Notes: generated by a model from the letters alone, not told the origin. A DNA stretch of 64,000 bases from Hallerella succinigenes (GCF_002797675.1 NZ_PGEX01000001.1:558001-622000); one strand, 5' to 3'; shown: positions 28,403-40,279, counted from the stretch's first letter. Made by a program: numbers and translations.

Positions 28403-30814
28403 TTAATTCAAATTTTTGTTGTCACGAATCTTTTCGATTTCAGCAAGACGCTGTTTCAATTCAGCGTTGTCCGAATCCTTACGGAGCAAATCCTTGTAGA
28501 TCTTGATCGCTTCGTCGTAAACGCCCTGGCCAAAATAAATTTCAGCGAGCGTACGCGTACTAGTCGTCGGATCTTCCAAGAGAGCGTCGTCCGAATCCTT
28601 ACCGAAAATGCTGTCGAAGGAAGAATTCACCGAGCCTTCCACAGCCGGAACGTCCTCGTCAAGCTTCAATTCGTCCAAAGAGAGTTCGTCATCCGAATCC
28701 TTGCCGAACAAATTATCGAACGAACTTTCGACTGAAGTTTCGAGAGTCTCTTCTGCTACAGGTTCTGCGGTCGGAGCTTCTGCATCAGCCGGAGATGCTG
28801 CCTTCGGAAGTTCCTCGTCTGCTGTGGAAGACTTTTCAAAGCCTCCTTCCAGCGGAAGATCGTCGTCATCCTTGCCGAACAAAGTATCGAACGAACTTTC
28901 GACTGAGGTTTCGAGGCTCTCTTCCGTCTTGGTTGCTGAAGCGGCTTCGAGAGTCGGAAGCGCTTCGTCCAAATTCAGAACGTCGCCTGTGGCCGGATTC
29001 TCTTCTGCAGCAGGTTCTGCGGTCGGAGCTTCTGCAACAGCCGGAGATTCTGCCTTCGGAAGTTCCACGTCTGCAGAGGAAGACTTTTCAAAGCCTCCTT
29101 CCAGCGGAAGATCGTCGTCATCCTTGCCGAACAAAGTATCGAACGAACTTTCGACTGAGGTTTCGAGGCTCTCTTCCGTCTTGGTTGCTGAAGCGGCTTC
29201 GAGAGTCGGAAGCGCTTCGTCTAAATTCAGAACGTCGCCTGTGGCCGGATTCTCTTCTGCTACAGGTTCTGCGGTCGGTGCTTCTGCATCAGCCGGAGAT
29301 GCTGCCTTCGAAAGTTCCACGTCTGCTGAGGAAGACTTTTCAAAGCCTCCTTCCAGCGGAAGATCGTCGTCATCCTTGCCGAACAAAGTATCGAACGAAC
29401 TTTCGACTGAGGTTTCGAGGCTCTCTTCCGTCTTGGTTGCTGGAGCCGCTTCGAGAGTCGGAAGCGCTTCGTCTAAATTCAGAACGTCGTCTGTTGCCGG
29501 ATTCTCTTCTGCTACAGGTTCTGCGGTCGGAGCTGCTGCAACAGCCGGAGATGCTGCCTTCGAAAGTTCCACGTCTGCTGAGGAAGACTTTTCAAAGCCT
29601 CCTTCCAGCGGAAGATCGTCGTCATCCTTGCCGAACAAAGTATCGAACGAACTTTCGACTGAGGTTTCGAGGCTCTCTTCCGTCTTGGTTGCTGAAGCGG
29701 CTTCGAGAGTCGGAAGCGCTTCGTCCAAATTCAGAACGTCGCTTGTTGTCGGATTCTCTTCTGCAGCAGGTTCTGCGGTCGGAGCTGCTGCAACAGCCGG
29801 AGATGCTTCTGCAACAGGAGCAGCTGGCTTCGATGGCACAAATTCTTCCGGAAGTTCGTCTTCCCCGAAGATATCATCAAAGGCATCGGACAAAGACTGA
29901 GCCTTTTCTTCCACCGCCGGAGCTTCTTTCACAGCAGGTGCTGTAGGAGCCGATTCTTCCATTTCAGAAGCACCAAAAATACCGGTCAAAGCAGAATTGA
30001 CATCGTTGCCGTCAATTTCGTCCATCGGGAACTGATCCTTGGTCGTATCGGTCGGGGCAAAGCCCGCTATCGCATCGTCCAAGCTGTGTTCCAAATCGTC
30101 AAAGGAAACTTCTGCATCCTTTTCTTCATCTGCAGGTATCAGGCTTGCGAGAGCGGAGAACGGATCATCTTCCGAAGTTTGCGATCCTTCTGCAGCGGTT
30201 TCATCGGCAGGAGCTTCTGCAACCGGAGATTCTTCCACGGCAACTGAGACTTCATCTTCAGCCTTCGGTGCAATCGTTTCCGAAGCCTTTTCAAACAAGG
30301 ATTCACCGCCCAAATCCAGGGGTTCATCCTTCAAAATTTCATCCAAAGACGGTTGTTCTGCGGTAGCGGCCGTTGCAACGCCCGCAGCACCCAGAGTCAT
30401 ATCCTGCGCCATCGATGCCATATCGATCTGCGGAGCATATTCTTCCTTCCAGAATGGATCCAGCGGATCTAAATCATGCAACAACTGATAATAGTAGTTT
30501 CGGTTGCCTTTATCACCTTTTGTGGCAAAGACATCGCCCAAGCGACGCAACGCAGAAAGGCAATACGGATTACGCGACAACACAGCTTCGCAAGCTTCGA
30601 CTACACCATCGAGATCCTGTTTTTCTTCCAAAATCTTCGAGAGGACCAAGTGGCCTTCAACGCTTTCCGGAAAATCCTGAAGACCGGACCTTACGCACTG
30701 CAAGGCACCGTCCAAGTCACCGCTCAAGCGCATCAAATCGGCAAGCCAGGCAAAAGCCTGAGACTGCTTCTTTTTGCCAATGGCCTTGCGAAGAGAATCT
30801 ACTGTTGTTGCCAT
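28403..30814 (-). CDS. Acidic TPR protein with four 84-residue tandem repeats
   Basis: 803 residues, very acidic and Ala/Ser/Pro-rich. Residues about 1-110 form tetratricopeptide-like helices. The central part is low complexity and holds four near-identical 84-residue repeats (354-689), each with DVLNLDEALPTLEA, ESSFDTLFGKDDDDLPLEGG and a spacer of AEAPTAEP type. Degenerate SSFD.xFGKDSDD copies follow. A final TPR (AEIYFGQGVYDEAIKIYKDL) ends the protein. It has no signal peptide or membrane helix. GAGG lies before the ATG, and the gene is 22 nt from pilT. I do not recognise the protein; the layout suggests a flexible scaffold, perhaps for the pilus or envelope machinery. Confidence 0.8.
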   Translation of the reverse strand: MATTVDSLRKAIGKKKQSQAFAWLADLMRLSGDLDGALQCVRSGLQDFPESVEGHLVLSKILEEKQDLDGVVEACEAVLSRNPYCLSALRRLGDVFATKGDKGNRNYYYQLLHDLDPLDPFWKEEYAPQIDMASMAQDMTLGAAGVATAATAEQPSLDEILKDEPLDLGGESLFEKASETIAPKAEDEVSVAVEESPVAEAPADETAAEGSQTSEDDPFSALASLIPADEEKDAEVSFDDLEHSLDDAIAGFAPTDTTKDQFPMDEIDGNDVNSALTGIFGASEMEESAPTAPAVKEAPAVEEKAQSLSDAFDDIFGEDELPEEFVPSKPAAPVAEASPAVAAAPTAEPAAEENPTTSDVLNLDEALPTLEAASATKTEESLETSVESSFDTLFGKDDDDLPLEGGFEKSSSADVELSKAASPAVAAAPTAEPVAEENPATDDVLNLDEALPTLEAAPATKTEESLETSVESSFDTLFGKDDDDLPLEGGFEKSSSADVELSKAASPADAEAPTAEPVAEENPATGDVLNLDEALPTLEAASATKTEESLETSVESSFDTLFGKDDDDLPLEGGFEKSSSADVELPKAESPAVAEAPTAEPAAEENPATGDVLNLDEALPTLEAASATKTEESLETSVESSFDTLFGKDDDDLPLEGGFEKSSTADEELPKAASPADAEAPTAEPVAEETLETSVESSFDNLFGKDSDDELSLDELKLDEDVPAVEGSVNSSFDSIFGKDSDDALLEDPTTSTRTLAEIYFGQGVYDEAIKIYKDLLRKDSDNAELKQRLAEIEKIRDNKNLN
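28748..29755 (-). repeat. Four tandem 252-bp coding repeats
   Basis: A segment including CCGAACAAAGTATCGAACG recurs at intervals of exactly 252 bp (starting 28875, 29127, 29379 and 29631). Copies are nearly identical even at synonymous positions, which points to recent duplication or ongoing recombination. The period is a multiple of 3, so copy number can change without a frameshift. Confidence 0.93.
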
Positions 30815-30829
30815 ATTTACCTCAATTCT

Positions 30830-31072
30830 TTACAGTGCGATGGCTTCATCCATCAAAAGAACCGGAATGCCATTCTTGACCGGGTAAAGCTTTTTGCCAT
30901 CTTGAGAAACGAGGGCTTCTTCCAAAGCTTCAGAAACAGCAGCTCCGCCCACATTCTTGAGAGTTCCCAAAGCGATTTCCGCATTCACCTTTGAAAGGAT
31001 TTCTTCGGACGCTTCCACGAGGGGTTCACGTGTATCTGGAGTGCACAAAAGAGACAGCATTTCAGAATCCAT
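30830..31072 (-). CDS. Trm112-family small protein
   Basis: 80 residues resembling the Trm112/YcaR (UPF0434) family: MLSLLCTPDTREPL at the N-terminus and LYPVKNGIPVLLMDEA at the C-terminus. The four zinc cysteines of eukaryotic Trm112 are mostly absent, as in many bacterial members. In other organisms Trm112 activates methyltransferases; bacterial roles are unclear. AAGGTGA lies before the ATG. It stands between the glycosyltransferase genes and the TPR repeat gene in the same orientation. Confidence 0.8.
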   Translation of the reverse strand: MDSEMLSLLCTPDTREPLVEASEEILSKVNAEIALGTLKNVGGAAVSEALEEALVSQDGKKLYPVKNGIPVLLMDEAIAL

Positions 31073-31132: not shown

Positions 31133-32671
31133 TCAATAGAAGTAATTCAAGTCCACAACGGCATAATCGGAGTTGTTTTCGGTGCCAATCAAGAGCTTTG
31201 GACAGACTCCCAACGATTTGACCCATTCCTGGTCAAAGGATTCCCGGAAACCGTTCGAATCCGAAAGGACGAGCAATTCCTTGCAACCGGTCCGCTTGCA
31301 AATCGACGGCAAATCCCGCAATCCGCCAAGCAAATGTTCGCGATTTTCTTCCGTCACCTTTTCCGGAGCGTTCGAAACACAGCCGAGCAGGTTCAAACCC
31401 GGTTTCAAATGGTAGCGGTCAAACCAGCAGTCGATTGCATCGGTCGATCCGCCGAGCAAAATGGAACGTTTTGCCTTTCCCGAAAAGATCTGATAAAAAT
31501 AATCCAGCCAAAAAAGCAGACGTCGCCAAAAAATACAGCCAAATACCACACCGATTGCAGGCGCCACAATCGATGCCTCGGTGCCTAAAAGTAAAACGGA
31601 AACGGCACTTCCCGCCGCAGCAGAAGGGAGCAAGAATTTGAGCAAACGAAACCCGTCGAGTTTCGAAGAAACGTAATCCCCCGCAAGCGCAAGCGGAAGC
31701 CAAGTAAACAGAGCAAGTACGCCAGCTACTTTACACGAGATCGGGGCTGCAAGCGAATACAGCAGGACACAAAGCCCAACGATTGCCACATCCACAAGCA
31801 TCTTCCACCACTGCGGAACGAGTCTCGAGAACACGCCGATCAGCGCCGCAAAGAAAATGCCGAGCGCAATGATAAAAGTCGGCATGTGATAATTGTGATG
31901 CTTCTTGGCGAAAATGAGCATAGCCATGTAGAAGTCCACAAACGTACGGAAGCGACGCGTTTTACTGCTCTGTCCCTTAAAATGAAGAATGCTCGTCCCT
32001 GGATAATAGTAGTTACGGTATCCAGACTTTTTAATGCGCAAGCAAATGTCCAAGTCTTCGCCGTACATGAAATAATCTTCATCGAAACCGTTCAGCTGGT
32101 TAAAGATTTCTCGCTTCACGCCAAGGAAAGATCCACTGACAGCATCCACTTCCGTCTCGACATTCGGATCCAGATAGGTCATGTTGTACGAAGCAAAAAT
32201 CTTACTCTTGGGGAAAAGAGCCGAAAGGCCGATTGTTTTACAGATTGCGGCAAAAGGCGAAGGGAACGACCTGCGACAAGCCCATTGCAACGTGCCGTCC
32301 CCATTCAAAATTTTACAGCCAACGGCACCTGCGTCCGCTTTAGAAGCCATGTAAGCAAGAGTTCTCTGAAAAGTTCCCTTCGAAACCACCGTATCCGGAT
32401 TGATGAAGAAAAGGATTTCCTTTGTCGCCTGCTTGGCCGCTAAATTGCAGCCTTTGCCAAAGCCCAGATTTTCCTGACTGACAATCCAATGGACATTCGG
32501 GAACGCCTTTTTTTGTTCTTCGAGAATCGGAACAAACGAACCATTGTCCACGACAAAAATTTCGGAATCGATATTTTCGAGAGCATCTGAAACCGAAGCG
32601 ACACAAGCCGGAATATAATCGCGGGAATTGTACGCTACAATGATGACAGAACAAGAAAACGGAGAACTCAT
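31133..32671 (-). CDS. Family 2 glycosyltransferase fused to membrane and C-terminal nucleotide-binding-like region
   Basis: 512 residues. The N-terminal GT-A domain of rhamnosyltransferase type (about 1-245) has VIIVAYNSRDYI, ENLGFGKGCNLAA, FINPDTVV and GFDEDYFMYGEDLDICLR. About four to five membrane helices follow (about 260-395). The last about 110 residues (SILLGGSTDAIDCWFDRY onward) resemble the nucleotide-sugar/CoA-binding-like domain found in polyprenyl-phosphate sugar transferases, but no catalytic transferase segment follows. It probably adds a sugar to a lipid-linked or surface glycan. It begins 15 nt after the DPM1-like gene. The fusion architecture is unusual. Confidence 0.8.
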   Translation of the reverse strand: MSSPFSCSVIIVAYNSRDYIPACVASVSDALENIDSEIFVVDNGSFVPILEEQKKAFPNVHWIVSQENLGFGKGCNLAAKQATKEILFFINPDTVVSKGTFQRTLAYMASKADAGAVGCKILNGDGTLQWACRRSFPSPFAAICKTIGLSALFPKSKIFASYNMTYLDPNVETEVDAVSGSFLGVKREIFNQLNGFDEDYFMYGEDLDICLRIKKSGYRNYYYPGTSILHFKGQSSKTRRFRTFVDFYMAMLIFAKKHHNYHMPTFIIALGIFFAALIGVFSRLVPQWWKMLVDVAIVGLCVLLYSLAAPISCKVAGVLALFTWLPLALAGDYVSSKLDGFRLLKFLLPSAAAGSAVSVLLLGTEASIVAPAIGVVFGCIFWRRLLFWLDYFYQIFSGKAKRSILLGGSTDAIDCWFDRYHLKPGLNLLGCVSNAPEKVTEENREHLLGGLRDLPSICKRTGCKELLVLSDSNGFRESFDQEWVKSLGVCPKLLIGTENNSDYAVVDLNYFY

Positions 32672-32686
32672 CGACTTCCCCTAAAA

Positions 32687-33400
32687 TCAGGAGCGCTTAA
32701 AACGCAGTTTCAAAACCAAGAAGAATGCTTCAGAAATAATGCCACCGCTCATCTTCGAAACGCCGCGAACACGGTCGGTAAAGACAATCGGAATTTCCTT
32801 GACGCGAAGGCCCTTTTTCCAAATCTTAAAAGTCGTTTCGATCTGGAAACAGTAGCCGTCACTCTTCATGCCCGAAAGATCCAAAGCTTCGAGAGCCGAA
32901 CGTCTAAAGCACTTAAAACCGCCCGTCGCATCCTTTACCGGAATGCCCGTGACGATGCGGGTATAAACGTTTGCAAAGTAACTCAGCAAAAGACGTTTCC
33001 AGTCCCAGTTGACAACGCCGATCTTTTTTCCGTTGTAACGGCTGCCCAGCACAAGGTCCGCATCTTCAGCGGCATCGAGAAAACGCGGAAGGTCATTCGG
33101 ATTGTGGCTAAAGTCCGCATCCATTTCAAAGACACGTTCAAAGCCGTTTTCCAAAGCCCACTTAAAACCGGTGACGTAAGCCGTACCAAGGCCCATCTTT
33201 CCCGGACGACGCAAAAGATGAATCTTTGCATTTTCCTTGGAAAGTCCTTCCACAATGTCACCTGTTCCATCGGGCGAGCCGTCGTCCACCACCAAAACTT
33301 CCAGGCAGGGATCCTGCCTCAAGACTTCGGGAATGATGAGCGTGATATTTTCTTTCTCGTTATACGTCGGAATGATGACAAGACTCTTCGGATAACTCAT
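32687..33400 (-). CDS. Polyprenol-phosphate mannose synthase (DPM1-like glycosyltransferase)
   Basis: 237 residues, a soluble GT2 enzyme of the dolichol-phosphate mannosyltransferase group, without membrane helices. Motifs: VIIPTYNEKENI, VVDDGSPDGTG, MGLGTAYVTGF, FEMDADFSHNP (metal-binding DAD), LGSRY, and VKDATGGFKCFRR. It would transfer mannose (or a similar sugar) from GDP-mannose to a polyprenyl phosphate on the cytoplasmic face, making a donor for GT-C enzymes in the periplasm. The overlap of 4 nt with the preceding GT2 gene and the nearby DUF2723 gene support that role. Sugar identity is inferred. Confidence 0.88.
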   Translation of the reverse strand: MSYPKSLVIIPTYNEKENITLIIPEVLRQDPCLEVLVVDDGSPDGTGDIVEGLSKENAKIHLLRRPGKMGLGTAYVTGFKWALENGFERVFEMDADFSHNPNDLPRFLDAAEDADLVLGSRYNGKKIGVVNWDWKRLLLSYFANVYTRIVTGIPVKDATGGFKCFRRSALEALDLSGMKSDGYCFQIETTFKIWKKGLRVKEIPIVFTDRVRGVSKMSGGIISEAFFLVLKLRFKRS

Positions 33401-34347
33401 ACGCGCTCCTCCAAATCCGTTTCAACGGCATCACGAACAGTTTCTGCTATCGGATAACGTTGCTCCTTGTTACGGCTCATGAGTTCCGCCAAGAAACCGA
33501 TCGAGAACAGCTGAATTCCCATGAGCAGCGAGAAGCCACCCACCACGATCAGCGGACGCAAATGCAGCGCTCCTGTCTTCAACCATTCAAAACCGAAGTA
33601 TCCAAAGACCGCACCACCGAACAGAAAAAAGAGCAGTCCAAAAAGGCCGAAAAAGTGAAGCGGCTTTGTCGCAAACTTGTTGAGGAAAAGAAGGGTCAAC
33701 AAATCCAAGAAGCCCGACACCAAGCGAGAAACGCCATACTTAGAAGATCCATGCACACGGGCGCGATGCGTCACCGGCATTTCCGTCACACGGGCGCCCT
33801 GCCACTTTGCCATCACCGGAATAAAGCGATGGAAATCCCCGTAAAGATTGATGAAGCGGACGACCGAGGCGCGGTACAGTTTAATGCCGCAGTTGAAGTC
33901 GTGCAAACGCTTGCCGCATACCGCAGAAACCGTCAAATTGAAAAGCTTGGAAGGCCAAGTCTTGTGCCACGGATCGTGGCGACGCACCTTCCAACCCGAC
34001 ACCAGGTCATAGCCTTCGTCGAGAATCTTCATCATCTTCGGAATTTCACGCGGATCGTCTTGCAAATCTCCATCAAGCGTAGCGATCAATTCGCCACGAG
34101 CCTTGGAGAAACCGAGCGAAAGGGCATCTGCCTTTCCACAGTTGAACTGGAAACGGAACAGTCGAAGGAAATCATACTGTTTTGCAAGTTCCAGCAAAAC
34201 ATTCCAAGAACGATCTCGACTTCCATCATCGATGACAATCACTTCAAACGACTTGCCCGTCGGAGTGATGGCATCCACAATTTCTTTCATCAGTTCCGGA
34301 AGATTTTCTTCTTCTTCCTTGACTGGAATTACAAGACTCAAATCCAT
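33397..34347 (-). CDS. Polyprenyl-phosphate glycosyltransferase (ArnC/GtrB-like GT2)
   Basis: 316 residues. The GT-A domain has VIPVKEEEENLPEL, VIDDGSRDRSW, ATLDGDLQDDP and RVHGSSKYG, followed by two C-terminal membrane helices (about 230-255 and 265-290). This is the architecture of enzymes that make undecaprenyl-phosphate-linked hexoses for envelope glycosylation. AGGA lies before the ATG. It sits between the DUF2723 gene (20 nt) and the DPM1-like gene (4-nt overlap), so the operon could make two different lipid-linked sugars. Confidence 0.88.
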   Translation of the reverse strand: MDLSLVIPVKEEEENLPELMKEIVDAITPTGKSFEVIVIDDGSRDRSWNVLLELAKQYDFLRLFRFQFNCGKADALSLGFSKARGELIATLDGDLQDDPREIPKMMKILDEGYDLVSGWKVRRHDPWHKTWPSKLFNLTVSAVCGKRLHDFNCGIKLYRASVVRFINLYGDFHRFIPVMAKWQGARVTEMPVTHRARVHGSSKYGVSRLVSGFLDLLTLLFLNKFATKPLHFFGLFGLLFFLFGGAVFGYFGFEWLKTGALHLRPLIVVGGFSLLMGIQLFSIGFLAELMSRNKEQRYPIAETVRDAVETDLEERV

Positions 34348-34367
34348 ACGTGTTTCCTAAAACCAGA

Positions 34368-37300
34368 TTAGTTAGCCACAGCGACCGTATCGTTTGCGGA
34401 AGAGTCCGACGAAGCCGAATCCGGGACAACCGTGAGGGTTTCCCGCATCAATTCCACAGAGCGACGGTTCCCTTCGAGGCGAGCCCTGCCCTGTTCGTCG
34501 TATGCCGGCACATTTTCGAGGCCCTTGTCGAGGTATTCCGCAGCACGTTGCTTGTCACGAACAAGTTCCAGGATATAAGCCGCGGCCCAGTAGCAGCGCC
34601 ATTCTTCCGGGAACTGATAAATACCCCTGTCGAGGAATCGAAGAGCGAAGTTGACCTTTTCATCGATCGTCTTTTTCTTTGAAAGCGTGAGAGGTGTACC
34701 ATCGCGGAGGAGAGCTTCCACTTCTTCACGGATCTGGAAAGCGATCTGCAAATAGAGAGATGTGTAGCTCGAAAGGAGACGGGACGTTTCGCCATTGATG
34801 TAAGCCGTACCATCCCCGAGACCGCGGAACTTGTAAACGCTGTCAACGAGCTTTGCCGTACGATCCAAGTCAAAGTCCCGATTGTTAGAACGACGGTCCG
34901 TCGTATCGCCCTGCATGAAGTTGTAGATCATGCCTTCCTGAACCATGTACTTTTCAAGGCCCATAAAGTTGGACATGCCGACAGTCGTCGAGAAGTGGAG
35001 CGGACGGTCGATATTGTTCATCGCAAGGTCCATCACGAGCTTGTACTGCGTGAGCATAATGCCCGCACGAGACTTCGACTGCCATTCCTTAAAGGCGCTG
35101 TAAACCTGGTACATGACCATGTACTGTTTGAGTTTCGCCGTATCGGCATCCGCCTTGAAGTTACCTGTCGAATCCTTCATGCTTTCGATACGCGCCTGAA
35201 GTGCCGGAATCACGCGATCAGCCTTAGCGACCCAAGTCTGCACATAATGATCCGGATTGCGTTCGTTCAAATCACCGATTGCCATCGACTTTTCGATGCC
35301 TTCCTTATCATAGCTGAGCTTCATGATCGGTTCATGATCGAGCATCTGCTTGATGTACCAATCCGTGTTACCAAGAGAAAGGTTCACAACGCGCACGTCC
35401 TTACGGATACCGGCGACTTCCTGCGCAAACCAGAGCGGGAAGGTGTCATTATCGCCATTCGTAAAGAGAATTGCATTCGGACGGCAGCTCATAAGAAGGT
35501 TGTAAGCGTAATCCCACGGCACCCAAAGACCAGAACGGTCGTGTTCGTGATAGTTCGAAACGCCCGGAATCACGGAGCAAATGAGCACAAACGCCACAGC
35601 GACCGGAGCTGCAAAAGCAGCCGCATTCGCCGCGAGCATATACACGAGAATGCCGACACCGACACCGAAGATAAGGCTCATAAAAATGTAAGCCGGCGTG
35701 TAGAAGTAGTCACGTTCGCGGACTTCAATGTGAACCGCTTCCGGGAACGGAGCACGACGGCCCATCTTCGCATAGGCGGCTTCGATTTTTTTCCAGGAAA
35801 TCCAAATGTTCGAATTTTCGAGATTGTTCAGCTTCTGTTCTGCCTTGGAAATTTCCGAAGCATTTGCATTACGGTAGCGGAGCGTGTTCAGTGCGAGTTT
35901 TGCATGTTCCACTTTCTGACGCATATCGATCAGATCGTTCGGATCCGGAACGCTAGGAACAAGGATGCCCGCCTGAGCAAGATCCCGCACATTCGATTCC
36001 ATCGCGGACTTCCAGTACTTGTAATCGCGGGAAGAATCCATACGCATACCGTCTGCAAAGTTGATGTAGAAGAGAAGACCGATCGAGCATATTCCGTAGA
36101 GCAGCGACATGTATATGCCGAGCTTCTTATTTCTGCGGTAAGAGAACACGCAGACGGCGACAATCGCACCGTTAAAGATCAAGAACCAGATGAGCTGAGC
36201 CGGGACATTATCGCCCATCGACGCCATCTGAGTCGGGAAGAAAAAGCCGAAGCGTTCGAGCGGAACGTTTTCAGACGGATCGAACGCATACGTTCCATTT
36301 CCAAAGGAAACTCCACCGACCTTAAACGGCAAATACTGGGCAATCTGATATCCTCCGTAACCCATGTTCGGGAACGAAAGAAGCTGGTGAGCAGCCTGAC
36401 CGCGACGGTGGAAAGCGCGGGAAAGCATGCCTTCGGAACCATACTGTTTACGAGCGAGGAAGTCGTTAAAAGCTGTCCAGTTTTCGGATTCAAAAAGCTT
36501 GCCGAGCTGAAGGTTACCCTGATCATCCTTAAAGTTCAATTCCGGATCGTTTTCATCAATCACCGGATTCAATTCCGAACGGATCGGAATGTAAAGATGA
36601 GAGCTGTAACCGAGCATGGCGACCACCGCAAAAGCGAGGGAAAGACGCACGCTCTTGTTGAATTCGAGATGGCTCGTCTTCACAAAAGACAAAACAGCAA
36701 GGACGATCGCCGTCACCAAGGAGATGGCGATAAAGCCCGCCACATAGTAGATCACCGAGCAAAGCAGAACACCCGTCACCCAAACCGGGATACGCGGCAA
36801 AATCTTTTTCGGTTCCACGATTAGCATCAAAACGAACACAGCCGGAATCGTGAGGAGCGTGTAAAGGTGCGCACCCACGCCGAGGAATGCGATGTAGCAG
36901 ATAAAGACGAGTATGCGATTTCCCCAGGCATCATCCCTGTGGTCCACCCACTTGAGAGCGAGGTAAGAAATGAGCATCACGATGAACATCGCAAAGCCGT
37001 AAACTTCCGCTTCGACAGCGCTGAACCAGAAGGTATCGCTGAAGGTCAAAAGCAAGCCGGCGCAGAGGCCAGCGGAAGCCAGCGAAAGTTTGCGAAGACC
37101 TGCAGAGACCTTGCTTGCAAGCTTGTCCGCAGAGAGAATCTTCGCCAAAAAGTCCCAAGCGAAAAGCGACGTGATGAAAACAGCAAGAGCGGAACTTACC
37201 ACCGAGATGTAGTTCAAGCGCTTTGCGATTTCTTCCACAAATGGAAGAAGGACTATCATCACGCGGGAAAGCATCACAAAGAACGGAGTTCCAGGAGGAT

Positions 37301-37454
37301 GCGGAATACCGAGGATGTTTGCACAGGCGACGAATTCACCGCAGTCCCAGAAGCTCACCGTTGGAGCCATCGTCGAAACGTAGACGATAAGCGCCACAAT
37401 AAAAGCAACACCTGCGGTCAAGTACTTCAACAGATTTTCAGAGATATTCTTCAC
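34368..37454 (-). CDS. DUF2723 membrane protein (GT-C-like, candidate O-glycosyltransferase)
   Basis: 1028 residues. About twelve membrane helices lie in the first 480 residues, with more near 600-650, then a large soluble C-terminal region ending in TPR-like helices. The family signature is near the N-terminus: TVSFWDCGEFVACANILGI, followed by PHPPGTPFF, with a candidate catalytic acidic residue in WDCGEF. DUF2723 proteins have a GT-C fold; the human member TMEM260 is reported as a protein O-mannosyltransferase. The ATG overlaps the nusB stop region by 4 nt. With the DPM1-like and ArnC-like genes downstream, this is the likely acceptor-side transferase of an envelope glycosylation system. 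Confidence 0.85.
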   Translation of the reverse strand: MKNISENLLKYLTAGVAFIVALIVYVSTMAPTVSFWDCGEFVACANILGIPHPPGTPFFVMLSRVMIVLLPFVEEIAKRLNYISVVSSALAVFITSLFAWDFLAKILSADKLASKVSAGLRKLSLASAGLCAGLLLTFSDTFWFSAVEAEVYGFAMFIVMLISYLALKWVDHRDDAWGNRILVFICYIAFLGVGAHLYTLLTIPAVFVLMLIVEPKKILPRIPVWVTGVLLCSVIYYVAGFIAISLVTAIVLAVLSFVKTSHLEFNKSVRLSLAFAVVAMLGYSSHLYIPIRSELNPVIDENDPELNFKDDQGNLQLGKLFESENWTAFNDFLARKQYGSEGMLSRAFHRRGQAAHQLLSFPNMGYGGYQIAQYLPFKVGGVSFGNGTYAFDPSENVPLERFGFFFPTQMASMGDNVPAQLIWFLIFNGAIVAVCVFSYRRNKKLGIYMSLLYGICSIGLLFYINFADGMRMDSSRDYKYWKSAMESNVRDLAQAGILVPSVPDPNDLIDMRQKVEHAKLALNTLRYRNANASEISKAEQKLNNLENSNIWISWKKIEAAYAKMGRRAPFPEAVHIEVRERDYFYTPAYIFMSLIFGVGVGILVYMLAANAAAFAAPVAVAFVLICSVIPGVSNYHEHDRSGLWVPWDYAYNLLMSCRPNAILFTNGDNDTFPLWFAQEVAGIRKDVRVVNLSLGNTDWYIKQMLDHEPIMKLSYDKEGIEKSMAIGDLNERNPDHYVQTWVAKADRVIPALQARIESMKDSTGNFKADADTAKLKQYMVMYQVYSAFKEWQSKSRAGIMLTQYKLVMDLAMNNIDRPLHFSTTVGMSNFMGLEKYMVQEGMIYNFMQGDTTDRRSNNRDFDLDRTAKLVDSVYKFRGLGDGTAYINGETSRLLSSYTSLYLQIAFQIREEVEALLRDGTPLTLSKKKTIDEKVNFALRFLDRGIYQFPEEWRCYWAAAYILELVRDKQRAAEYLDKGLENVPAYDEQGRARLEGNRRSVELMRETLTVVPDSASSDSSANDTVAVAN

Positions 37455-37915
37455 TGGTTCTCCTCCGCACGTTCGTTCTTGGCAAGCATACCCTTGTCAC
37501 GTGCATACTGGTTCAATATACCGTTGATGAAACGAGACGAATCTTCCGTGCTAAACTTATTCGCAATCTGCACAGCTTCTTCGAAGACCACCTTCACCGG
37601 AACGTCCGGCTGGTACTGAAGTTCCGTGAGTGCGATGCTCAGAATAATCTTGTCGATAGTCGCCATGCGGTCGAGATCCCAACCTTGAGCCTTTCCCGCG
37701 ATAATCGTGTCGAGTTCTGCACGGTGTTCCTGGATCAAGTCCACAAGAGACATTCCATAGCATTTCATTTCTGCCGGAAGTTCCTTCTTCAGAGCTTCCT
37801 TCATGCTCATCAAAACGCCTTCAACGCAATTGCCAACCGGCTGTTTCGTGATTTCCATGGAATAAAGAAGTTCCATGGCGAACACACGAGCCGATCTTCT
37901 ATTTATAGACTTCAT
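37451..37915 (-). CDS. nusB: Transcription antitermination factor NusB
   Basis: 154 residues, all-helical. It binds boxA RNA with NusE (S10) in rRNA antitermination. Family landmarks: RRSARVFAMELLYSME at the N-terminus, IDKIILSIALTEL in the middle, and VVFEEAVQIANKFSTEDSSRFINGIL at the C-terminus. It overlaps ribH by 4 nt, the common ribH-nusB arrangement in bacteria. Confidence 0.95.
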   Translation of the reverse strand: MKSINRRSARVFAMELLYSMEITKQPVGNCVEGVLMSMKEALKKELPAEMKCYGMSLVDLIQEHRAELDTIIAGKAQGWDLDRMATIDKIILSIALTELQYQPDVPVKVVFEEAVQIANKFSTEDSSRFINGILNQYARDKGMLAKNERAEENQ

Positions 37916-38388
37916 GCGAGTTCCTTGTAAAGATTCACCATTTCCACAGCACTTTCGGCACAGTCAGCGCCCTTGTTACCGCCCTTGAGACCGGAGCGGG
38001 ACATCGCCTGATCGACCGTATCCGTCGTCAGAACGCCAAAGATCACCGGAATCTGTCCGTTCGCAGCGAGAGCCGCCGTTCCATTCGTCGCCGCATTCAC
38101 CACACAGTCGAAATGCGGAGTTTCGCCACGGATCACGGCTCCAAGCACGATCACCGCGTCAAACTTCTTCGAATCCACAAAGCGCTTTGCTACGCCCGTG
38201 AGTTCAAAAGCTCCCGGCACATGAGCAACGGAAATATCCTTCGCATTCACACCCAGAGCTTCGAGCTTCGAAACAGCTCCGGAAAGAAGACCTGCGGTCA
38301 CCGTCGTATTGAAATCGGCAACTGCGATTGCGATGCGCATGCCCTCACCGTTCAGGCTTGTCTTGTAAGTATGGACTTCTGTCATCAT
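37912..38388 (-). CDS. ribH: 6,7-dimethyl-8-ribityllumazine synthase
   Basis: Condenses 5-amino-6-ribitylaminouracil with 3,4-dihydroxybutanone 4-phosphate, the penultimate step of riboflavin synthesis. 158 residues. Active-site segments: ADFNTTVTAGLLSGA, HVPGAFELTGVAKR, and GAVIRGETPHFD (with the catalytic His), and SRSGLKGGNKG near the C-terminus. It lies 11 nt after ribBA and overlaps nusB. Confidence 0.96.
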   Translation of the reverse strand: MMTEVHTYKTSLNGEGMRIAIAVADFNTTVTAGLLSGAVSKLEALGVNAKDISVAHVPGAFELTGVAKRFVDSKKFDAVIVLGAVIRGETPHFDCVVNAATNGTAALAANGQIPVIFGVLTTDTVDQAMSRSGLKGGNKGADCAESAVEMVNLYKELA

Positions 38389-38399
38389 GGAATCGTTCC

Positions 38400-39605
38400 T
38401 TATTTATCCAAATTGTTCAAGATGTGACCCATCTTCTTTTTCTTCGTCTGCAAGTAAAAACGATCTTCCGGGGTCGGAGGAATTTCGATAGGGACGCGTT
38501 CCACGATTTCGAGGCCGTAGCCTTCGATACCCGTCACCTTGGCAGGATTGTTCGTAAGAAGACGCATCTGGCGAACGCCGAGATCTTTCAAGATCTGAGC
38601 GCCAATGCCGTATTCGCGCAAATCCGGTTTAAACCCAAGGCGCTGGTTCGCTTCGACCGTGTCGAGGCCCTGTTCCTGGAGTTCATAAGCACGGAGCTTA
38701 TTACAAAGACCTATACCGCGGCCTTCCTGATTTCTCATGTAAAGGAAGACACCGCCGTGTTCACCGATAAAACGCATTGCGCTTTCGAGCTGAGCCCCGC
38801 AATCACAACGACGGGAGCCAAAGATATCGCCGGTCAAGCATTCGCTGTGTACACGCACATAGACCGGCTTCGAGAAGTCGAGTTCACCAGTCACCCAGGC
38901 GATATGTTCCGAGCCATCTGTCTTGCTACGGAAACCGATCGCGTGGAAATCGCCAAACTTGGTCGGCACATGCGGAGCGGCAACGCGTTGCACAAAGGAT
39001 TCGGTGCGAAGGCGGTAAGCGATCAAGTCTCGGATCGAAATGATTTTCAGGTTGAACTTCTTCGCGACTTCCTGCAGTTGCGGCATGCGCGCCATGGTAC
39101 CGTCTTCATTCATGATTTCGATGAGAGCGGCGGCGGGGCGAAGACCTGCAAGCTTTGCAAGGTCCACGGCAGCTTCCGTGTGACCGGCGCGGCGGAGAAC
39201 GCCTTCTTCCTGCGCATACAGCGGAGAGATGTGACCCGGACGGCCAAAGTCACCCGGTTTCGAATTCGGATCGGAAAGAGCGAGGATTGTCGCAGCACGA
39301 TCGTGAGCCGAGACGCCCGTGGTGCAGCCTTCAATCTTATCCACCATAATCGTGAACGGTGTGCCCAGAACGGAAGTGTTTTCCACAGTCTGACGGGAAA
39401 GTCCGAGTTCCTTGCAACGGGCCATCGGCAGCGGGCAACAGAGAACTCCGCGCCCTTCATGCAACATAAAGTTCACCTTTTCCGGGGTGATCTTTTCTGC
39501 CGCAATAATGAAATCGCCTTCGTTTTCACGATCTTCATCGTCCACGACAACGAGAAACTTGCCATTCTTAAAATCTTCGATGGCTTCTTCAATCGTGTTA
39601 AGCAC
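38400..39605 (-). CDS. ribBA: Bifunctional 3,4-dihydroxybutanone-4-phosphate synthase / GTP cyclohydrolase II
   Basis: 401 residues. The N-terminal RibB half has [14 protein letters not shown] and [16 protein letters not shown]. The C-terminal RibA half has the zinc site [19 protein letters not shown] (three Cys) and [10 protein letters not shown]. Both entry branches of the riboflavin pathway are thus supplied by one polypeptide. It overlaps the end of ribE by 8 nt and ribH follows. I saw no broken active-site residue in either half. Confidence 0.96.
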
Positions 39606-40197
39606 GGTCTCTTTCCTCTAAATAATTTTCAATGTACTTGCCGAGCATATCCACTTCCACGTTCACCACGGTACCGACTTCCCATGTACGCAGATTCGTA
39701 CGGGAAAGCGTATCCGGAATGATTGCCACGCGAAGCGACTTCTCATTCTTTTCTGCAACCGTCAAGCTGATTCCATTCAACGCAATCGAACCGCGGCGAA
39801 TTACATAGCGTCTTAAATTCTCCGGCAATTCAAGTTCCACTTCTCCACCCGTTTCACGCGGGATTATCGAAAGGACTTTGACCGCTGTATCCACATGGCC
39901 CATCACAAAATGGCCTCCCATGTAAGAATCCGCACGGCAAGCGAGTTCCAGATTTACCAAATCTCCAGTTTTTGCACTCGAAAAAGAAGTGTTCGCCAAA
40001 GTTTGGTGCATCATGCAAAAAGTCGCCTCATCATCCGTACGGCTTTCGATTGAAAGACATACGCCGTTATTGGCAACGCTATCACCCAGTTTACACGCCT
40101 TAAAGAATCCCGGCGAGCGAATACGCATCGTAAGCGCATCACCACGATTCTCTAAAGAAACGATTTCACCAGTTGCTTGAACAATTCCCGTAAACAT
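39598..40197 (-). CDS. ribE: Riboflavin synthase, alpha subunit
   Basis: Dismutates two 6,7-dimethyl-8-ribityllumazines to riboflavin. 199 residues with two lumazine-binding repeats: [12 protein letters not shown] at the N-terminus, and [12 protein letters not shown] opening the second. [11 protein letters not shown] is also typical. The ATG at 40197 begins the invariant MFTGIV; a TTG three codons upstream is not used by homologues. The leader (40198-40280) shows no FMN riboswitch. ribD is not in the window. Confidence 0.95.
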
Positions 40198-40279
40198 ACG
40201 GCGCAAAAAATAGAAAAAACGCTTTTGAACAACCTAGTAGACCGCTCGTATTCCCCCATAAACCCGTTCAAACGGCAAC

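Follow-up and report, generated by a model that had tools for sequence, protein, structure and literature searches.

A TMEM260-like protein encoded with lipid-sugar synthases in Hallerella succinigenes as a candidate initiating enzyme of Bacteroidota-type protein O-glycosylation

Organization of the locus

The sequence considered here (the window) is a stretch of 64,000 nt from Hallerella succinigenes (GCF_002797675.1 NZ_PGEX01000001.1:558001-622000), and all positions are counted from its start. The genome that contains it is complete (3.13 Mb) and carries one PF11028 gene. This gene, located on the minus strand at 34368-37454 and starting with GTG, codes for a DUF2723/TMEM260-like membrane protein of 1028 aa with a predicted GT-C fold, for which we propose a role as O-mannosyltransferase. 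Three further genes follow it head-to-tail on the same strand. They code for an ArnC/GtrB-like GT2 whose C-terminal part has two membrane helices (33397-34347, 316 aa), a putative polyprenyl-P-sugar synthase; a soluble DPM1-like GT2 (32687-33400, 237 aa), a putative polyprenyl-P-mannose synthase; and a GT2 fusion protein (31133-32671, 512 aa), weakly rhamnosyltransferase-like, in which membrane helices are combined with a C-terminal domain and whose gene is part of a conserved order. The PF11028 gene is separated by 20 nt from the gene of the ArnC/GtrB-like enzyme, which overlaps the DPM1-like gene by 4 nt, and another 15 nt precede the GT2 fusion.

The gene calls, on the minus strand, confirm the four reading frames of an earlier note on this DNA, with the 20-nt gap and the 4-nt overlap. 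The genes it described as adjacent are indeed so, but it had missed that the start of the PF11028 gene overlaps nusB (37451-37915) by 4 nt. The four glycosylation genes therefore continue a string composed of ribE (39598-40206), ribBA (38400-39605), ribH (37912-38388) and nusB, all on the minus strand. Of these, nusB, ribH and ribBA are upstream neighbours kept in relatives; nusB and ribH were assigned by domain search and gene order, while ribBA and ribE are named from their sequence, with conserved order. A strong terminator-like hairpin of 12 pairs on the same strand upstream of ribE (40310-40283), recognized by its pattern, probably bounds the transcription unit on its 5' side. Since the gene order is kept in distant relatives, a chance arrangement is excluded.

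Elsewhere in the window, the region 28403-30814 codes for an 803-aa protein with a C-terminal TPR part and four near-identical tandem repeats of 84 aa (252 bp; 28747-29807, 96% match), of the acidic SSFDxLFGKDDDDLPLEGGF type. Its gene has a Trm112-like ORF of 80 aa (30830-31072) on one side and a pilT-like gene on the other, and other Fibrobacteraceae have the same order.

Sequence family and predicted fold of the PF11028 protein

The sole Pfam match of the 1028-aa protein is PF11028 (160.5 bits, E = 4.8e-47, curated cut-off 24.2). The same search gave no match to PF02366 (PMT), PMT_2, PF02516 (STT3) or PF04932 (Wzy_C), which sets the protein apart from the PMT, ArnT and OST enzymes whose GT-C fold it is predicted to share. 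A single-sequence phmmer search against the PDB matches human TMEM260 (9rql) at E = 2e-11, and a profile built on 46 bacterial PF11028 members matches it at E = 2.4e-57. The profile alignment is colinear over three stretches, namely the N-terminal domain (E = 1e-36), a middle part which is weak when taken alone, and a soluble “GD...L.Y...EG.R.D.....WY” block (E = 3e-17), which contains the bacterial GDNDTFPLW...EG.R.D...NTDWY motif (GDNDTFPLW at 667-675). The homology to TMEM260 thus extends beyond the Pfam domain. The first external loop carries Asp37, Glu40 and HPPGxP (52-57). Asp37 is aligned by the profile to the Asp of human PGGDSGEL, and Asp37, HPPG and Asn81 do not vary across the 46 sequences, which come from several phyla. 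The C-terminal part is matched by profile to TPR chains and contains paired helices (888-1009) in the AlphaFold model. In TMEM260, an O-mannosyltransferase of family GT117, the TPR part is luminal and has been proposed to recruit substrates (PMC11292533). While the two proteins have in common the N-terminal GT-C domain, the soluble “GD...EG.R.D” block and the first-loop Asp with HPPG, the bacterial one is longer and has lipid-sugar synthases as operon partners. The acceptors differ as well, being IPT domains for the human enzyme and, in our proposal, a short D(S/T) motif for the bacterial one.

The AlphaFold model, of good quality (pLDDT 79.8, pTM 0.82), predicts a GT-C fold, with an acidic residue (Asp37) in the first external loop. 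Structural alignment places it close to yeast OST (Z 23.1), Pmt1-Pmt2 (Z 22.4), Pmt4 (Z 22.4, rmsd 3.8 Å over 380 residues) and ArnT (Z 22.3), the fold being common to all of them at Z 20-23. The catalytic DE motif of PMTs, which is invariant, lies between TM1 and TM2 (PMC12705809). The corresponding loop of the model contains Asp37 and Glu40, of which Asp37 is a candidate catalytic residue. A Foldseek search of the PDB with the model returned nothing at E ≤ 0.001 and did not list the TMEM260 entries; the family link to TMEM260 rests on the sequence profiles. The fold alone is compatible with either a protein or a lipid/glycan acceptor; the sequence kinship with TMEM260 points to a protein.

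Glycosyltransferase partners

The 237-aa GT2 aligns to the DPM synthase of Pyrococcus furiosus (5mlz, E = 1e-26), including its conserved DAD and GSRY...NW...R segments. Both belong to the same GT2 family, although the bacterial protein is shorter and has no membrane helices. It probably makes the lipid-mannose donor, as judged from its sequence for both sugar and activity; close GT2 relatives of DPM1 use other sugars. The 316-aa GT2 matches ArnC (9hwj, E = 6e-46) and GtrB (sll0501, E = 2e-28), and like them combines a GT2 domain with membrane helices. It is however far below the NCBIfam equivalog cut-off for ArnC (163.7 vs 529 bits), and can be called ArnC/GtrB-like only, its sugar not being readable from the sequence. 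The GT2 fusion is a candidate extending or assembly enzyme.

Distribution and gene neighbourhood in relatives

PF11028 is present in all 61 Fibrobacterota genomes and in 217 of 218 Bacteroidota genomes, while among 14 control genomes it was found in Bacteroides only. The one Bacteroidota genome without a match (G269), whose assembly is fragmented and yields few secreted proteins, has kept its DPM1 ortholog. The distribution of the latter is similarly wide: 56 of the 61 Fibrobacterota have one, as do all 31 sampled Bacteroidota (one each, with 49-61% identity, far above other GT2s). For other phyla, it was found in 13 sampled genomes with PF11028, and was missing in two with only divergent PF11028 and in three without PF11028 (Fisher p 0.012, for a small sample of genomes that are not independent). 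Several genomes carry PF11028 paralogs, with 16 copies in a groundwater bacterium (G087) and 3-6 copies, including short forms of about 620 aa, in three genomes of family f2 (G023, G025 and G029).

The gene neighbourhood was surveyed in 20 regions around PF11028 genes from other Fibrobacterota. The rib-nusB cluster is widely conserved in this phylum, and nusB adjoins PF11028 in families f1 (5/5 loci), f2, f3, f4, f5 and f8; the f6 and f7 loci surveyed have PF11028 without an adjoining nusB. The ArnC-like, DPM1-like and GT2-fusion genes lie downstream of PF11028 in f1 and its sister family f2, and no DPM1 gene was found beside PF11028 outside these two families in the 20 regions. The survey had been suggested in the earlier note as a check on the conservation of the DUF2723-DPM1 adjacency, which holds, within a single cluster, for the class to which the Fibrobacteraceae belong but not for the deeper families examined, where DUF2723 stands with nusB or alone and DPM1 is not beside it.

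At two f2 loci, genes coding for a GT4, a flippase-like membrane protein (PF03706) and RmlD (dTDP-rhamnose) are inserted between PF11028 and DPM1. The PF03706 protein is a candidate polyprenyl-P-sugar flippase, and RmlD gives a mere hint of a deoxyhexose or a core of the Man-Rha-GlcA type. Genes of the YfhO family (PF09586, another GT-C type) adjoin or lie near PF11028 or the DPM1 ortholog at four loci (L081, L084, G002:C15 and G005:C73), and a weak YfhO-like protein is encoded at G000:C1:447741. In Bacteroidota, the contexts of PF11028 differ, often with a polysaccharide deacetylase-like gene following it and, in Bacteroidales, queG (six loci for the two patterns together). Neither PMT (PF02366) nor STT3 was found in the H. 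succinigenes genome or in any sampled Fibrobacteraceae.

Acceptor motif in secreted proteins

In Bacteroidota, non-cytoplasmic proteins are glycosylated on the Ser/Thr of the motif D(S/T)(L/I/V/T/A/S...), with mannose as the first hexose, and the core flippase, transferase and ligase of this system are “undiscovered” according to a 2025 review, which also reports a similar motif enrichment for Fibrobacterota and suggests looking in this phylum (PMC12871550). The O-oligosaccharyltransferase of P. gingivalis is likewise called unknown (PMC8729774). Motif statistics for H. succinigenes were obtained from 864 kb (40 stretches and the window), with expectations from within-protein shuffles. Since secretion was called by simple signal-peptide rules on home-made gene calls, the class assignment is approximate, and errors should dilute the signal.

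The 124 predicted secreted proteins contain 383 occurrences of D(S/T)(L/I/V/T/A/M), where 156 are expected (z 20). D(S/T) followed by a hydrophobic residue ranks first among 208 motif classes, with a 2.46-fold enrichment in secreted proteins compared to 1.30 in cytosolic ones. A single repeat protein does not account for the enrichment, which is still 2.27-fold once the five most motif-rich proteins are removed. It disappears when Asp is replaced by Glu or Asn. At the +1 position, the enrichment is highest for L (3.4), followed by V (2.8), T and I (2.3 each), A (1.9) and S (1.6), and is low for G, F, Q and E. Ser is favoured over Thr, and this pattern, together with the +1 order, is close to the rule derived from glycoproteomics (PMC12871550). 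The genome has the enrichment of D(S/T)(A/I/L/V/M/T) in non-cytoplasmic proteins which is characteristic of Bacteroidota-type O-glycosylation.

For the comparison between groups, enrichment ratios were taken from pooled tests with cytosolic controls, per-genome ratios being unstable in small samples. Fibrobacterota outside the family reach 2.34-fold, while the pooled values are modest for Bacteroidota (1.36) and similar for Gemmatimonadota (1.39, with 0.75 for cytosolic proteins). The small samples from E. coli (0.87), an actinobacterium without PF11028 (0.60) and the Bacteroidota genome without PF11028 (G269, 0.80) all fall below 1. The ratio is 1.32 (p 0.18) for Prevotella nigrescens, which is related to a species with proven O-glycosylation, and one Gemmatimonadota genome with PF11028 (G071) has no enrichment. 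The link between PF11028 and motif enrichment across phyla is suggestive but loose and underpowered.

Proposed function and alternatives

From the genes, their homology and linkage, the predicted fold, the conservation and distribution, and the motif, we infer the donor, sugar, activity, acceptor, direction and order of steps as follows. The PF11028 protein would be a bacterial GT-C protein O-mannosyltransferase of the TMEM260 type (GT117-like), located in the inner membrane. Polyprenyl-P-mannose would be made on the cytoplasmic side by the DPM1-like GT2 and then flipped, possibly by the PF03706 proteins encoded in the f2 cluster; in the case of Pmt4, it has been suggested that the transferase flips Dol-P-Man itself (PMC12705809). 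After export of the acceptor protein, the PF11028 protein would move the mannose to the Ser/Thr of D(S/T)(L/V/I/T/A) motifs. Asp37 is the candidate for catalysis, and the TPR helices at the C-terminus would help to keep the substrate in place. That this protein transfers mannose from the lipid made by the DPM1-like enzyme to D(S/T) sites of exported proteins is the reading we favour, with moderate confidence. The O-glycan core of Bacteroidota is of the Man-Rha(-GlcA) type, in line with which the ArnC/GtrB-like GT2, the GT2 fusion and, in f2, RmlD could each contribute to the supply or addition of later sugars.

The core of what the earlier note had proposed, a GT-C protein working with lipid-P-sugar synthases on exported proteins, is borne out by the colinear TMEM260 alignment, the GT-C model, the conservation of DPM1 with PF11028 and the D(S/T)-hydrophobic signature; the surface glycans it had named as another acceptor are possible but less likely.

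PF11028 would in this way start the O-glycosylation known from Bacteroidota, in a system that includes Fibrobacterota. The general system of Bacteroidota (LFG) resembles the one described here in the statistics of its acceptor motif, in the +1 preference in secreted proteins, and in the near universality of PF11028 and DPM1 orthologs in that phylum. It differs in that its known genes are those of the outer glycan (the metG-wzx-GTs locus), while the Fibrobacterota side consists of genes and motif only. The PF11028 protein is a good candidate for the initiating enzyme. The wider claim, that PF11028 and DPM1 initiate general D(S/T) glycosylation not only in Bacteroidota and Fibrobacterota but probably also in Gemmatimonadota and further groups, by O-mannosylation with a monosaccharide and not by an oligosaccharyltransferase step, has in our view an even chance of being correct.

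Several observations weigh against the favoured reading: the loose motif link across phyla, the modest enrichment in Bacteroidota, the folded IPT domains that TMEM260 accepts, the model of a disaccharide transferred as a unit, and the Wzy_C, PMT_2 and YfhO-like proteins as other candidates. Human TMEM260 acts on Ig-like IPT domains, probably via its TPR module (PMC11292533), and PF11028 proteins could similarly glycosylate a few folded (e.g. Ig-like) domains, while the D(S/T) glycan would be attached by another enzyme, e.g. a ligase of the Wzy_C/PglL type or a GT-C resembling YfhO. The H. succinigenes genome does code for two Wzy_C proteins of the ligase/polymerase type, as well as for two proteins with weak similarity to PMT_2 and to YfhO, respectively, and YfhO-family genes adjoin PF11028 or DPM1 in some Fibrobacterota. 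We nevertheless find this unlikely: Wzy_C is missing in some relatives (among them the congeneric G031, as well as G023 and G016), a waaL ligase mutant of P. gingivalis had no change in the O-glycoprotein tested (PMC8729774), and PF11028 is the candidate found in every sampled Fibrobacterota genome.

It is about equally improbable that PF11028 is the D(S/T) enzyme with a different donor, either a disaccharide carried on a lipid or what the ArnC/GtrB-like GT2 makes, the DPM1-like enzyme then serving another GT-C such as a YfhO-like one. A lipid-linked model has been proposed for Bacteroidota, with transfer of the core disaccharide in one piece (PMC12871550), YfhO-like genes adjoin DPM1 in G002 and G005, and the RmlD of the f2 cluster suggests a deoxyhexose; against this stand the lipid-P-mannose donor of TMEM260 and its PMT relatives, and the very wide conservation of the PF11028-DPM1 pair. 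Least probable of all, an ArnT-like activity by which PF11028 adds the sugar made by its ArnC/GtrB-like neighbour to lipid A, to LPS or to some other glycan of the envelope would suit the type of that GT2 and a predicted fold resembling ArnT as well as PMT, but the sequence profile matches TMEM260 and not ArnT, the neighbour falls far short of the ArnC equivalog score, DPM1 is the steadier partner of PF11028 across phyla, and the D(S/T) signature would be left unexplained.

Significance

Pfam already labels PF11028 as TMEM260-like and, TMEM260 being a GT117 enzyme, the family is known. What appears to be new is the proposal that it carries out the initiating step still lacking an enzyme in Bacteroidota-type O-glycosylation, together with the naming of a donor synthase and of a Fibrobacterota operon; the literature searched, without preprints and subscription papers, contains no prior claim tying DUF2723 or a bacterial TMEM260 to Bacteroidota O-glycosylation. 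The locus names a candidate enzyme and a donor synthase for an abundant system of Bacteroidota, and since both are nearly universal in the two phyla, the question of the initiating transferase is made testable. TMEM260 is linked to human congenital heart disease. If the assignment is true, the human protein would have a common origin with an enzyme of protein glycosylation that is widespread in bacteria, which could provide bacterial models for TMEM260 and possibly a tool for site-directed O-mannosylation.
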